Source: Methanothrix sp.
GTDB lineage: Archaea > Halobacteriota > Methanosarcinia > Methanotrichales > Methanotrichaceae
Direction of reading: 5' to 3'
Assembly: GCA_029907715.1 (NCBI GenBank)
Contig: JARYLI010000002.1
Coordinates: 1-64,000 of the forward strand
Length of the DNA: 64,000 nucleotides
The first letter of the stretch is position 1, and the number at the start of each line of letters is the position of its first letter. Positions 9,510 to 39,030 of this stretch are shown piece after piece. The notes under the pieces are model-generated. The model did not search any database. It was not told where the DNA came from and worked only from the letters and a program-made list of their open reading frames with translations. The translations under genes were made by a program, and so were the position numbers.

Positions 9510-10457
9510 GTGATCAAGCATGTATGTATGTGGGTGTTGGTTGGGGTATTCCTGATCAGCGGTCTGGCTCTTGGCGGATACGACCTCAACCCCGGCGCAG
9601 GCGTTGTGAATATGAGCCTGCAGGATTTCAAGTCTCTTCTGCAATCGTCTGGAGCAAAAGAGGTATCTGTACCGATTCCCCAGGCGGCTGGATCCTCGGC
9701 GGTGGAAAGCGCGGTTTACACAACCCAGGCCCCGCCAGAGACTGATTTAGGTGAGCTGCTTGCGTTCGATGATATGGACCAATCGTCTTACGTCTACTAC
9801 GGCGGCAGCTACATGCCCTGGGGGAGGTTCAGCGCGATCTTTCCACAGGACACGCCCCTGATGTGGATCAGACGGCATAACGGGTGGTCGTGGTATGCCA
9901 CAATGCCTCTTGGCACGTGGTCAGAGATGCTGATGTTCATTCCGGATGCATCGCCTGTTTACATCTACGAGATATACCCACAGGGGTTCGTGTGGAGGTA
10001 CGATTTTGGATATGTGGACCCTGGCTTCTACCGCATCTGGTACTATGCAGATATCCCTGGAAGGCATGAATGTCTCCTCTACTCAGGGGGCATGTTCAGC
10101 AACCGCGTGGTTGTTGATGTTTTCCATCAGTGGATCCCGCCGGAGCCGTCACCAGGCCCCTCTCCACGGGAGGTCTGCGAGAGCAACCCCCAGTGCAGCT
10201 GGGTCAACGGGAAGTGCTACTGTCGCGGCCTGATTCCTCCAGACGATCCGGAGAAGCAGCGATGCGAGCAGAACCCGATGTGCCAGTGGGTCAACGGGCA
10301 GTGCCTGTGCACAGGACTGATTCCAGATGATCCGGAGAAGCAGCAGTGCGAGCGCAACCCCATGTGCCGCTGGGTCAACGGGCAGTGTCTGTGCACAGGG
10401 CTGATAGGGACAGAGGCAGATGATGGCATGATTGGATCTGCACTGCCGGAGCAGTGA
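9510..10457 (+). CDS. Exported protein with three C-terminal Cys-rich repeats
   Basis: I do not recognise a family. The 315-residue protein begins with a clear signal peptide (MWVLVGVFLISGLALGG), so it is probably secreted or anchored outside. The middle is rich in Trp and Tyr and predicted to be beta-stranded. The C-terminus holds three near-identical ~32-residue repeats of the form C-E-x-N-P-x-C-x-W-V-N-G-x-C-x-C-x-G-L-I, separated by DDPEKQ. Each has four cysteines, which suggests disulfides or metal binding. GTG 9510 is taken as start; an in-frame ATG at 9528 is possible. The response regulator just upstream runs the same way. Confidence 0.75.
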   Translation: MIKHVCMWVLVGVFLISGLALGGYDLNPGAGVVNMSLQDFKSLLQSSGAKEVSVPIPQAAGSSAVESAVYTTQAPPETDLGELLAFDDMDQSSYVYYGGSYMPWGRFSAIFPQDTPLMWIRRHNGWSWYATMPLGTWSEMLMFIPDASPVYIYEIYPQGFVWRYDFGYVDPGFYRIWYYADIPGRHECLLYSGGMFSNRVVVDVFHQWIPPEPSPGPSPREVCESNPQCSWVNGKCYCRGLIPPDDPEKQRCEQNPMCQWVNGQCLCTGLIPDDPEKQQCERNPMCRWVNGQCLCTGLIGTEADDGMIGSALPEQ

Positions 10458-24537: not shown

Positions 24538-24847
24538 TATAGTATTCCGTATAAGTTGATATAATATTGCACGTCACATAAAATCATCTGTGAAGTATGA
24601 CACATCCAGTAAATTTTAAATGGATTTACATGAAGTGACGCAAAAGGCTATAATTGGTTGCTCTCCGGCATGATCGCTCTTATGTGCTTAGCAACTTTGA
24701 TGCCCGCAAGCCCATTGCTACCAGTCCTCATTTATAGTCCTTTGCGTCACTCCATGTAAACTCATTTAAAAGCTACTGGATATGTCATACTTCATAGACG
24801 ATTTTATGTGATATTCTATATTATAGCAACTTATGCGGAATATTATA
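24538..24847. repeat. 310-bp foldback element with 116-bp arms
   Basis: The left arm (24538-24653) and right arm (24732-24847) are inverted copies with scattered differences, so a transcript or single strand could form one long hairpin. Matching landmarks are TATGACACATCCAGTAAA on the left against TACTGGATATGTCATACTTC on the right, and GTGACGCAAAAGG against CCTTTGCGTCAC. The 78-base centre contains a truncated family-2 element. There is no coding capacity and I see no flanking duplication. Confidence 0.85.
24675..24717 (+). repeat. Family-2 short element, copy F (truncated, inside the foldback loop)
   Basis: CGCTCTTATGTGCTTAGCAACTT matches the left end of the family over about 23 bases, and a paired CCCATTGCTAC follows. 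The right half is missing. It occupies the loop of the 310-bp foldback. Confidence 0.55.
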
Positions 24848-24883: not shown

Positions 24884-25402
24884 TCAAAGCGCCTGTTTGC
24901 AGCCCCTGCGAAAGGAGCACCTCAAGCATCTCGCCTTCTGGCTGTGATTCCTCTTAGCATGCCCCCTTATCAGCGCGCGCCTCATCTCATCCAAAGCGCT
25001 CAGGACCTCAGCCCTAAGATCGTCATTGAGCTCTATCCTGTAGCGCCTGTTCCTGTAGACGATATACCCGTACGGAACATATGTTCTGTAGATCTCTTCC
25101 ATGATCAGGCCGTAGGCTGCAAGCTGGAGCTGGTGGCTCCTGTACGGCTTTTCTGCCAGGCTGCTCTTGACCTCTACGGGTATCAGATTCCTGCCCTCTT
25201 TTATTATGTAATCTGGCTTTCCTGAGAGATGGTAGCGCTCGGAACGCAGGACCCTTCCAGATCCGGACAGATCTGAGTAGAGGGCATCTCCATCCAGCAA
25301 ACCGTATCTCACTTGTAGGGATCTCGCAGCCGAGGATATCTTGATGGACAGAAGCAGAGATGCAGTGCCCAGAACAAAGAGGAGCGGCGTGATCTCATTC
25401 AT
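24884..25402 (-). CDS. Cas4-like nuclease, C-terminal half (membrane-anchored)
   Basis: The 172-residue protein begins with a hydrophobic segment (ITPLLFVLGTASLLLSI). It then carries the catalytic part of the RecB/Cas4 PD-(D/E)xK fold: D in GKPDYII, E and K in PVEVKSS, and the QLQLAAYGLIMEE motif. The C-terminal CLRCSFRRGC cysteines would bind an iron-sulfur cluster with a cysteine from the upstream gene. The ATG 25402 overlaps the upstream stop by eight bases (ATGAATGA), so coupling is likely; TTG 25417 is an alternative start. Together the two genes make one complete domain. No CRISPR is nearby. Confidence 0.75.
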   Translation of the reverse strand: MNEITPLLFVLGTASLLLSIKISSAARSLQVRYGLLDGDALYSDLSGSGRVLRSERYHLSGKPDYIIKEGRNLIPVEVKSSLAEKPYRSHQLQLAAYGLIMEEIYRTYVPYGYIVYRNRRYRIELNDDLRAEVLSALDEMRRALIRGHAKRNHSQKARCLRCSFRRGCKQAL

Positions 25403-25658
25403 GAACAAACCATCCAATAACTGATAAAAGCATCATAAGCCCTCCTGCGATCCGCAGGATACCCGAGATCCTTTTCAGAAGATGCGATCTCGACAGGGAC
25501 GCGCCTGCTGCTCTGTGCATCTCCCTCCCCTCCATCATCTCCCTGCGCACGTGTCCGGAAGGTCGCATTCCCATCCTGCTCTGGTACCAGGCCACAGGAC
25601 AGTATGCGTACTCCGCAACCTCGGATGCCGATATCCACTCCCTCTTCCGGCGGAACAT
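25395..25658 (-). CDS. Cas4-like nuclease, N-terminal half (membrane-anchored)
   Basis: The 87-residue protein opens with ISASEVAEYAYCPVAWYQSR, the first-cysteine segment typical of Cas4/RecB-like nucleases, then GREMHRAA with the motif-I histidine. It ends in a transmembrane helix (ILRIAGGLMMLLSVIGWFV). It lacks the D-E-K catalytic residues, which lie in the next gene one frame over. The pair is either a true split protein with two membrane helices or a frameshifted single gene. A TATA box lies about 28 bases before the ATG. Confidence 0.72.
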   Translation of the reverse strand: MFRRKREWISASEVAEYAYCPVAWYQSRMGMRPSGHVRREMMEGREMHRAAGASLSRSHLLKRISGILRIAGGLMMLLSVIGWFVHE

Positions 25659-25681
25659 CGCTTACTGAGGTCAGACCGTTT

Positions 25682-25690
25682 ATTTATAAA
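25682..25690 (-). promoter_or_regulatory. TATA box of the split Cas4-like pair
   Basis: The minus strand reads TTTTATAAATAAAC, about 25-32 bases before the ATG at 25658. A perfect hairpin (CAACAGG/CCTGTTG, 25703-25719) lies just upstream of it. Confidence 0.5.
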
Positions 25691-25884
25691 ATTGACGGTA
25701 TGCTCAACAGGTGGCCTGTTGATCTGAGCCATCTGATACATACAGAGCTGCAGCGCGCCGGTTATCCCGGAGCGCTGGGCGCTGCTCTCTTCAAGGAAAC
25801 AACGACAACCACCGGATTTTTCCCGCAACGCCTGATTGATCAGGAACTGAAATGTCAGGCGCTTTGGATCTCCTGAATCAGATC

Positions 25885-34741: not shown

Positions 34742-35476
34742 TCACAGCATCCTGGAGACGGCGCAGCTCTTCACCCCGCATATTCCGATCATCTCACACG
34801 AATCGCATTTCTCGTTCCTCACATCAGGCATCTCTCCATCGCGTATCTTGCGCACACGGTCCCTCACCCAGAGCGCCCTCGATCTGTCCAGGCCTCTGAT
34901 GCGCACGCGTCTTATCTCCCCCTCACGCACGTACTCAACCTGCCCCGTGGATACCTCAACCCCAAAGCGCTCTTCGAGGAGCATGGCGTACCCAGCGAGC
35001 TGTATCCTGTCCCTCCTCCACACCCCCTCTCCTGGCGGTCTCCCGGTGCGGACCAGTGATGGAATCATCTGAGCATCTCCGCCCAGCAGCATTCCCAGCA
35101 GCCCCCGCCGTTCTGGCTCAGGCCTGACCAGCCTGTCCAGAATCCCGGAGAGGCCCAGCCGCTCTGAGCGCAGCTCCACCTCGATATCACATGGTGTTAC
35201 GAGCTCCCGTGGAACAGATGCGATCCTGGAGATGGATCCCCTCATGCTATCGATGGATCTGATGACATCTTCCTCTGGGATTCTGTGGACCGTAGCCACA
35301 TCCTGCACGACCTTTGAGAGATCCCCGCGCAGATCCTCTGGTGCTGAGTAAAGCGCGAGATGGCGGAGAAGCGTGCGCCCTCTATCAGCTCTGAAGCATT
35401 CTCTGCCCATCGACTCCAGATAGACAAGCATCGGGCACCTCAGGTAAAGCCCTATATCGTGAATCCTGACGAACAT
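34742..35476 (-). CDS. Cas4-like protein with degenerate catalytic motif
   Basis: The 244-residue protein has the RecB/Cas4 outline: an early cysteine (LYLRCPMLVYLESMG), a GLSGILDRLV segment with the motif-II aspartate, QLAGYAMLLEE, and a C-terminal cysteine cluster (CDSCEMIGICGVKSC) for an iron-sulfur site. At the place of the usual E-x-K-T-G it reads LVRTGRPP, so both Glu and Lys appear replaced. Nuclease activity is therefore doubtful. It begins four bases after the exported propeller gene in the same direction. No CRISPR array or other cas gene is near. Confidence 0.72.
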   Translation of the reverse strand: MFVRIHDIGLYLRCPMLVYLESMGRECFRADRGRTLLRHLALYSAPEDLRGDLSKVVQDVATVHRIPEEDVIRSIDSMRGSISRIASVPRELVTPCDIEVELRSERLGLSGILDRLVRPEPERRGLLGMLLGGDAQMIPSLVRTGRPPGEGVWRRDRIQLAGYAMLLEERFGVEVSTGQVEYVREGEIRRVRIRGLDRSRALWVRDRVRKIRDGEMPDVRNEKCDSCEMIGICGVKSCAVSRML

Positions 35477-37294: not shown

Positions 37295-37376
37295 GAGACG
37301 CGCTCGAATCTCCGGCACACCCGGAGAGACGTTGAAAAACTTTCATAAGATGTCAGAGCCAATTGCCAGTGAAATC

Positions 37377-37565
37377 CATGCGTCATCGGTTAAGATCGGC
37401 ATGTGTAGAATTGGACTTAGTAGTCTTATCTCGCCTCAGTACTGCTATCAGGACTCAGGTCCACAGGCGGTCGATTTGAATCAAACTCTCCACTATGGGG
37501 CGATCTCAATTTGTCAAATTTCATGATCAATATATTTACATAAAATCCTTAACCGATGATCAATG
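37377..37565 (+). mobile_element. 189-bp MITE family 1, copy 3 (10-bp duplication)
   Basis: A full-length copy with terminal repeats CATGCGTCATCGGTTAAG and CTTAACCGATGATCAATG. The duplication CAGTGAAATC is perfect at 37367-37376 and 37566-37575. It lies 83 bases upstream of the propeller operon. Confidence 0.93.
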
Positions 37566-37639
37566 CAGTGAAATCTGATCCTGCATCTCCGGTATCTGAA
37601 TGCTGGTCATGACCTCTCCCTGAAAGGGCGAGGAGTGAG

Positions 37640-38622: not shown

Positions 38623-38679
38623 GCTGTAAATTGACCTTATGCTGGCGCGAAGCATACCGATCAGTTTCGAATTTACAGC
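38623..38679. repeat. Nested hairpin at the MITE copy 4 insertion site
   Basis: GCTGTAAATT (38623-38632) pairs with AATTTACAGC (38670-38679), and TATGCT/AGCATA forms a smaller stem inside. The right arm overlaps the 10-bp sequence duplicated by MITE copy 4. Confidence 0.45.
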
Positions 38680-38685
38680 GAATTC

Positions 38686-38874
38686 CATGCGTCATCGGTT
38701 AAGATCGACATGTGTAGAATTGGACTTAATAGTCTTATCTCGCCTCAATACTGCTATCAGGACTCAAGTCCACAGGCGGTCGATTTGAATCAAGCTCTCC
38801 ACTATGGGGAGATCTCAATTTGTCAAATTTTATGGTCAATATATTTTCAGAAAATCCTTAACCGATGACAAATG
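38686..38874 (+). mobile_element. 189-bp MITE family 1, copy 4 (10-bp duplication)
   Basis: A full-length copy. The flanks are CAGCGAATTC (38676-38685) and CAGCGAGTTC (38875-38884), nine of ten identical, so it may be slightly older or mutated. It lies about 220 bases upstream of the MC1 gene. Confidence 0.9.
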
Positions 38875-39030
38875 CAGCGAGTTCGATACACTGCCTGCTG
38901 GTTCACGAGATGCCATTGAGCGAATTGCGCACGCGATCGATTTCTATAGTCTGACCGCATCGATCGAGCAGTTGCGAAGAGGTACTTTCACCAATTCCTG
39001 AGATGGAACAAAAAATTAATATAAGGGTAT

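Follow-up and report, generated by a model that had tools for sequence, protein, structure and literature searches.

A conserved pair of overlapping genes for a predicted membrane-anchored, Cas4-like nuclease in Methanothrix, other archaea and bacterial plasmids

Two minus-strand open reading frames, ORF-A and ORF-B, were identified in a 64,000-nt stretch of a Methanothrix sp. genome (hereafter the window), where they are flanked by a nadE-like gene on one side and by dnaJ-dnaK-grpE on the other (Table 1). The first-pass annotation of this DNA described two coupled genes in different frames that overlap at ATGAATGA, and the coordinates, the difference in reading frame and the shared bases (25402-25395) were verified on the minus strand. 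It further assigned the first cysteine, the motif-I His and a terminal membrane helix to the upstream gene, and a membrane helix, D, E-x-K, Q-x-x-x-Y and the last cysteines to the downstream gene, with the join falling between the two helices. This partition is borne out by the translations: ORF-A carries C20, H48 and a helix at approximately residues 67-85, ORF-B carries all of the remaining elements, and each ORF has a single predicted helix, placed at the gap in the Cas4 profile. A TTG at 25417, upstream of the ATG at 25402, is a possible alternative start for ORF-B and is not required.

Table 1 Features of the two-gene locus, in window positions.
Feature	Position	Strand	Description
ORF-A	25395..25658	minus	87 aa, ATG to TGA; N-terminal half of Cas4-like nuclease and C-terminal membrane helix
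ORF-B	24884..25402	minus	172 aa counted from ATG; N-terminal membrane helix, catalytic core, three cysteines
Overlap ATGAATGA	25395..25402	minus	8 nt; ORF-B start and ORF-A stop
BRE/TATA-like element CAATTTTATAAATA	25681..25694	minus	Read from sequence; ends 22 nt before ORF-A start codon
ORF-A transmembrane helix (residues 67-85, ILRIAGGLMMLLSVIGWFV)	25404..25460	minus	Predicted from hydropathy and positive-inside charges; in all orthologues
ORF-B transmembrane helix (residues 4-22, ITPLLFVLGTASLLLSIKI)	25337..25393	minus	Predicted from hydropathy and charge pattern

Both ORFs are under purifying selection, with dN/dS values within the genus of about 0.09-0.41 for ORF-A and about 0.11-0.25 for ORF-B. 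The BRE/TATA-like element CAATTTTATAAATA is identical in 6/6 genomes of the genus, with varying flanks and variable sequence after its last A. Judged against archaeal promoters in general, its spacing from the start codon suggests that the ORF-A/ORF-B transcript is leaderless or has a very short leader. A Shine-Dalgarno signal before ORF-B did not rise convincingly above shuffled sequences. Just downstream of ORF-B lie two inverted-repeat arms (24538-24656 and 24729-24847; 119 nt, 85% complementary, 72 nt apart), and their folding is much stronger than that of shuffled sequences (z -15.9). Copies resembling the arms are present on contig C18 of the same genome near its CAS-cas4 gene (L061/L129, about 314-506), and the inverted repeat looks like a MITE-like mobile element.

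The pair matches Cas4-family profiles well beyond chance. ORF-B was recovered by Pfam Cas_Cas4 (PF01930, 8.9e-12) and by NCBIfam TIGR00372 (5.8e-23, profile 60-179, above the cut-off), and ORF-A by the beginning of TIGR00372 (1.4e-5, profile 1-47, below the cut-off); together they tile the 180-position model, a pattern seen again in a whole-genome profile search. C20 of ORF-A lies within YAYCPVAWY and its motif-I His within GREMH48, while the core motifs of ORF-B are GKPD64, E77-V-K79 and Q93-LAA-Y97, followed by the C-terminal cysteines C159/C162/C168. Comparison of 14 divergent orthologues showed C20 and G44-x3-H48 of ORF-A and D64, E77, K79, Q93, Y97, C159, C162 and C168 of ORF-B to be invariant. 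The four Fe-S cysteines that characterise Cas4 (one N-terminal, three C-terminal) and the RecB-type motifs (H, D, E-x-K, Q-x3-Y) are therefore all present, spread over both chains; the usual single polypeptide, which is not a strict requirement for Cas4, is replaced here by two. The ORF-B sequence profile matches the catalytic half of the solved Cas4 structures 8d3l, 7mi4, 4r5q and 4ic1, which differ from the pair in being single-chain (7mi4 is fused to Cas1) and, to our knowledge, have no membrane segment. For ORF-A, neither its sequence profile against solved structures nor its AF2 model against PDB folds gave a credible or significant match.

Two-ORF junctions were read in 33 archaeal genomes from five families; the window's family accounts for 21 of them and four other families for the remaining 12. 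Within the window's family (50 genomes searched) ORF-B was found in 22 genomes, with ORF-A adjoining wherever the contig permits checking; both halves lie at contig edges in G060, and only ORF-A, near a contig edge, was recovered from G050. Searches widened to the class (232 genomes), the phylum and other classes provided the four further families, whose 12 split copies comprise eight genomes of genus g74, recovered by the class search, together with L073, L082, L084 and L086. Both halves occur in the same 20 genomes of a 394-genome phylum sample, where they are adjacent. In G343 (L085), no ORF-A was found upstream of the ORF-B-like gene, which is divergent. The unit is missing from several near-complete genomes of the window's family, indicating that it is dispensable. 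Nearly all 33 junctions are short start/stop overlaps. All six members of the window's genus share an identical 8-nt overlap, and the overlaps outside the genus measure 4 nt (ATGA or GTGA), 13 nt or 16 nt; the frame offset between the ORFs is +1 within the genus and -1 elsewhere. The ORF-B start is less clear in L049 and L053, where the options are a GTG located 25 nt ahead of the ORF-A end and a TTG 2 nt past it. Near locus position 1495 of L075 (G316), the GTG of its sister L074 has mutated to GCG, the ORF-A stop is shifted downstream and the start of ORF-B is ambiguous.

These junctions bear directly on the possibility that the locus is a single-chain Cas4-like gene broken at the overlap by a frameshift of recent origin or by an indel introduced in sequencing, as the differing frames and the existence of single-chain relatives (L076, L078, L080, L083 and L119) might imply. 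The split recurs in 33 genomes of five families, in independent assemblies of which some are single-contig, the two chains have separate start codons, stop codons and membrane helices, and both ORFs are under purifying selection, while the change of offset from +1 to -1 excludes one ancestral indel error. A frameshifted gene or pseudogene was rejected on the conserved split, the lineage-dependent offset and the purifying selection, and we consider a broken gene or assembly error extremely improbable. Programmed ribosomal frameshifting at the overlap, yielding one fused protein, would likewise account for a second overlapping ORF in another frame, and the fused homologues imply that a fused product is tolerated. 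However, the ribosome would have to shift by +1 in the window's genus and by -1 in others, which makes this mechanism very unlikely; the overlap itself is not conserved (ATGAATGA, ATGA, GTGA, 13 or 16 nt), no shared slippery heptamer was seen, the ATG or GTG of ORF-B nearly always lies inside the overlap, and in a Bacillus pair the genes do not overlap but are 4 nt apart. With no conserved slippery site and no fixed direction of shift, a programmed-frameshift gene was rejected and is assigned a very small probability. ORF-A and ORF-B are thus very likely a real, conserved two-gene unit. The first-pass annotation had favoured a real two-subunit arrangement over a broken gene and had proposed looking at whether relatives are fused or split; the split is kept in all five other members of the genus, in 21/21 family genomes with a readable junction, in the four other archaeal families and on bacterial plasmids.

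Bacterial copies were reached by tblastn of ORF-B against plasmids, with matches on Bacillus subtilis plasmid NRS6107_2 and Paludisphaera borealis PALBO2. On both, a gene of 82-92 codons annotated as 'hypothetical protein' precedes the Cas4-like gene. In translation, the bacterial first half shows ISA.E..(x)YCP..W, G-x3-H and, at its C-terminus, a helix; the second half consists of an N-terminal helix, the catalytic core and three cysteines. A two-gene unit with a 4-nt overlap is also present on Singulisphaera pSINAC03, which is typed as conjugative, bringing the plasmid-borne two-chain form to three bacterial species; the genes of the Bacillus pair are separated by the 4-nt gap and do not overlap. 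The Bacillus and Isosphaeraceae pairs (Dna2/Cas4-domain protein plus 'hypothetical protein') hence share layout, helices and residue partition with the archaeal unit, and differ in being bacterial and plasmid-borne; we found no published two-subunit reading of them. The units on pSINAC03 (L142) and PALBO2 (L145) lie near DNA methylase and MobF relaxase genes, which suggests a plasmid-transfer or anti-restriction setting. On a plasmid of Planctomyces sp. SH-PL62, a shortened Cas4-like gene with an overlapping hypothetical gene follows an IS701 transposase (L143:2337-2836) and is possibly a disrupted copy of the two-gene unit. Searches of viral contigs and phages returned distant partial homologues or nothing.

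A single fused gene was found in five archaeal genomes (L076, L078, L080 and L119, g74; and L083, of another family), and the fused protein retains the two helices, located between motifs I and II. Phylogenetic analysis of 37 ORF-B-type sequences, with soluble Cas4 as the outgroup, placed the fusions at two separate points among the split copies, with weak support for the deep branches. Given this placement inside the split clade, the fusions are best read as secondary, with at least two independent fusions of the two genes, and this position, along with the retention of both helices, supports the idea that the two halves work together. Single-gene relatives with a clear indel had been named at the outset as the mark of a frameshift; those found are distant, keep both helices and fall inside the split clade. 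In a second tree, to which soluble Cas4 proteins and bacterial copies were added, all membrane-anchored copies lie on one side of a branch with 100/99 support when flanks are included, and the membrane-anchored clade remains apart from soluble Cas4 on the catalytic core alone, bacterial pairs included (99/98.6). The archaeal sequences do not form a clade apart from the bacterial ones in the core tree, where archaeal monophyly is not rejected (AU p 0.335).

In nearly all orthologues, Lys/Arg residues abound next to each helix on its nuclease side and are few or absent at the junction ends. According to the positive-inside rule the Lys/Arg-rich flank of a membrane helix is cytoplasmic, so that both nuclease halves are predicted to face the cytoplasm, with the junction outside. 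The AF2 model of ORF-A (mean pLDDT 71) contains a single helix (35-86) in which the motif-I region runs into the transmembrane segment, whereas that of ORF-B, built from four sequences, was poor (pLDDT 42). We offer the following arrangement as a model. ORF-A and ORF-B would form one transcription and translation unit under their own promoter, the short start/stop overlaps probably coupling translation and keeping the amounts of the two chains similar. The motif-I His, the first cysteine of the cluster and the helices at the N-terminus would come from ORF-A, which would then exit across the membrane; ORF-B would re-enter through its own helix and provide the D, E-x-K, Q-x3-Y core together with the three remaining cysteines. 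In this arrangement the two helices may stand in for the linker of a single chain, so that the two cytoplasmic halves could come together as one Cas4-like fold at the inner membrane face. It is likely that the products assemble into one membrane-tethered Cas4-like nuclease, and we place at roughly 0.85 the probability that the pair is a PD-(D/E)XK nuclease of the solo-Cas4 type that is heterodimeric, tethered to the membrane and equipped with an Fe-S cluster. The analysis establishes the gene structure, its conservation, the partition of residues, selection, common ancestry and repeated fusion; that the chains form a heterodimer, bind Fe-S, cut DNA and are coupled in translation is what we infer from sequence.

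The two products might instead have separate roles, with ORF-B acting as a membrane nuclease by itself and ORF-A being either a regulator or a leftover N-terminal domain. All of the D/E/K/Q/Y catalytic residues reside in ORF-B, which could in principle cut alone, and G343 has its ORF-B-like gene without ORF-A. Against this, the first cluster cysteine and the motif-I His are found only in ORF-A, where they are invariant, and the two genes co-occur and have been fused at least twice, which leaves separate roles improbable.

Turning to the genomic setting, no CRISPR-like repeat array was found within the 64,000-nt window, in agreement with the first-pass annotation, and no operon partner is common across families in 20 neighbourhoods plus the window. 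The lack of a neighbourhood conserved across families leaves the pathway unconstrained. The host genome carries cas1 at two other loci, on other contigs, and has two single-chain Cas4 genes near cas1 (G000 C18:29627-30199 and C4:138178-138744), which belong to the same nuclease family as the pair, and in contrast to it are single soluble chains of ~200 aa on a different branch. The pair adjoins neither cas1/cas2 nor a CRISPR array, as a CAS-Cas4 would, and is a Cas4-family gene unit outside CRISPR-cas loci, as solo-Cas4 is defined. Trimming of prespacers for the host Cas1-Cas2 by a membrane-bound Cas4 would be compatible with the two-chain structure, and the Cas4-family profile match, the two host cas1 loci and the presence of cas1 in 21/22 family genomes with ORF-B are consistent with such a part in CRISPR adaptation. 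Nevertheless, two other Cas4 genes already sit beside the host cas1 genes, G008 (93% complete) has the pair and no detected cas1, many relatives with cas1 lack the pair, the pair's clade is separate from the CAS-Cas4 proteins sampled, and neither a cas gene nor a CRISPR is found in its vicinity; a role in adaptation is accordingly unlikely. Among PADLOC models only Cas4/Cas1-fusion and DruK matched, with no closer named non-CRISPR defence system.

The anchor and, in bacteria, the plasmid carriage point most simply to a two-chain nuclease that handles DNA at the membrane, and we tentatively suggest a role in processing or degrading DNA there, such as incoming plasmid or viral DNA; this is the weakest step of the model, rated at below even odds. 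The broader proposal of an ancient two-subunit, membrane-tethered Cas4-like clade of archaea and bacterial plasmids, which would cut or trim entering DNA at the membrane independently of CRISPR, is more doubtful still.

Hudaiberdiev et al. (2017; PMC5704561) defined solo-Cas4 as Cas4-family genes outside CRISPR-cas loci. The pair shares with Cas4 (PF01930/DUF83, TIGR00372) and with this class the four-cysteine signature and the order His, D, E-x-K, Q-x3-Y, and with the solo-Cas4 class (PMC5704561) its location outside CRISPR-cas loci, but it differs from that class in consisting of two overlapping genes, in the helix pair between motifs I and II and in forming a clade of its own. In the main text of the 2017 survey the word 'split' is absent and 'membrane' occurs once, and no split or membrane-anchored group is described there (PMC5704561). 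No description of a Cas4 that is split or anchored in the membrane emerged from a search of the open-access literature. Cas4-type enzymes are usually treated as soluble single chains, and plasmid records of Bacillus and planctomycetes list the N-terminal half of the unit as 'hypothetical protein'. With an anchor on each half, a conserved two-chain form would be a naturally split Fe-S nuclease, the activity of which would require assembly at the membrane, and natural fused and split versions within one archaeal genus are available for comparison. Solo-Cas4 proteins have an unexplained role outside CRISPR, for which the unit is also a concrete candidate.

The window contains a second Cas4-like ORF at 34775-35182 on the minus strand (266-aa open frame; TIGR00372 48.7 bits, below the cut-off), which groups with longer (~270 aa) Cas4-like proteins of relatives. 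Several of these ~270 aa proteins are without the motif-II Asp and the Glu of E-x-K (GIPS, PLSIRT). Elsewhere in the window are a 211-nt direct repeat (37361-37571 and 38670-38880, 92% identical) and an 84-nt tandem duplication (10238-10405).
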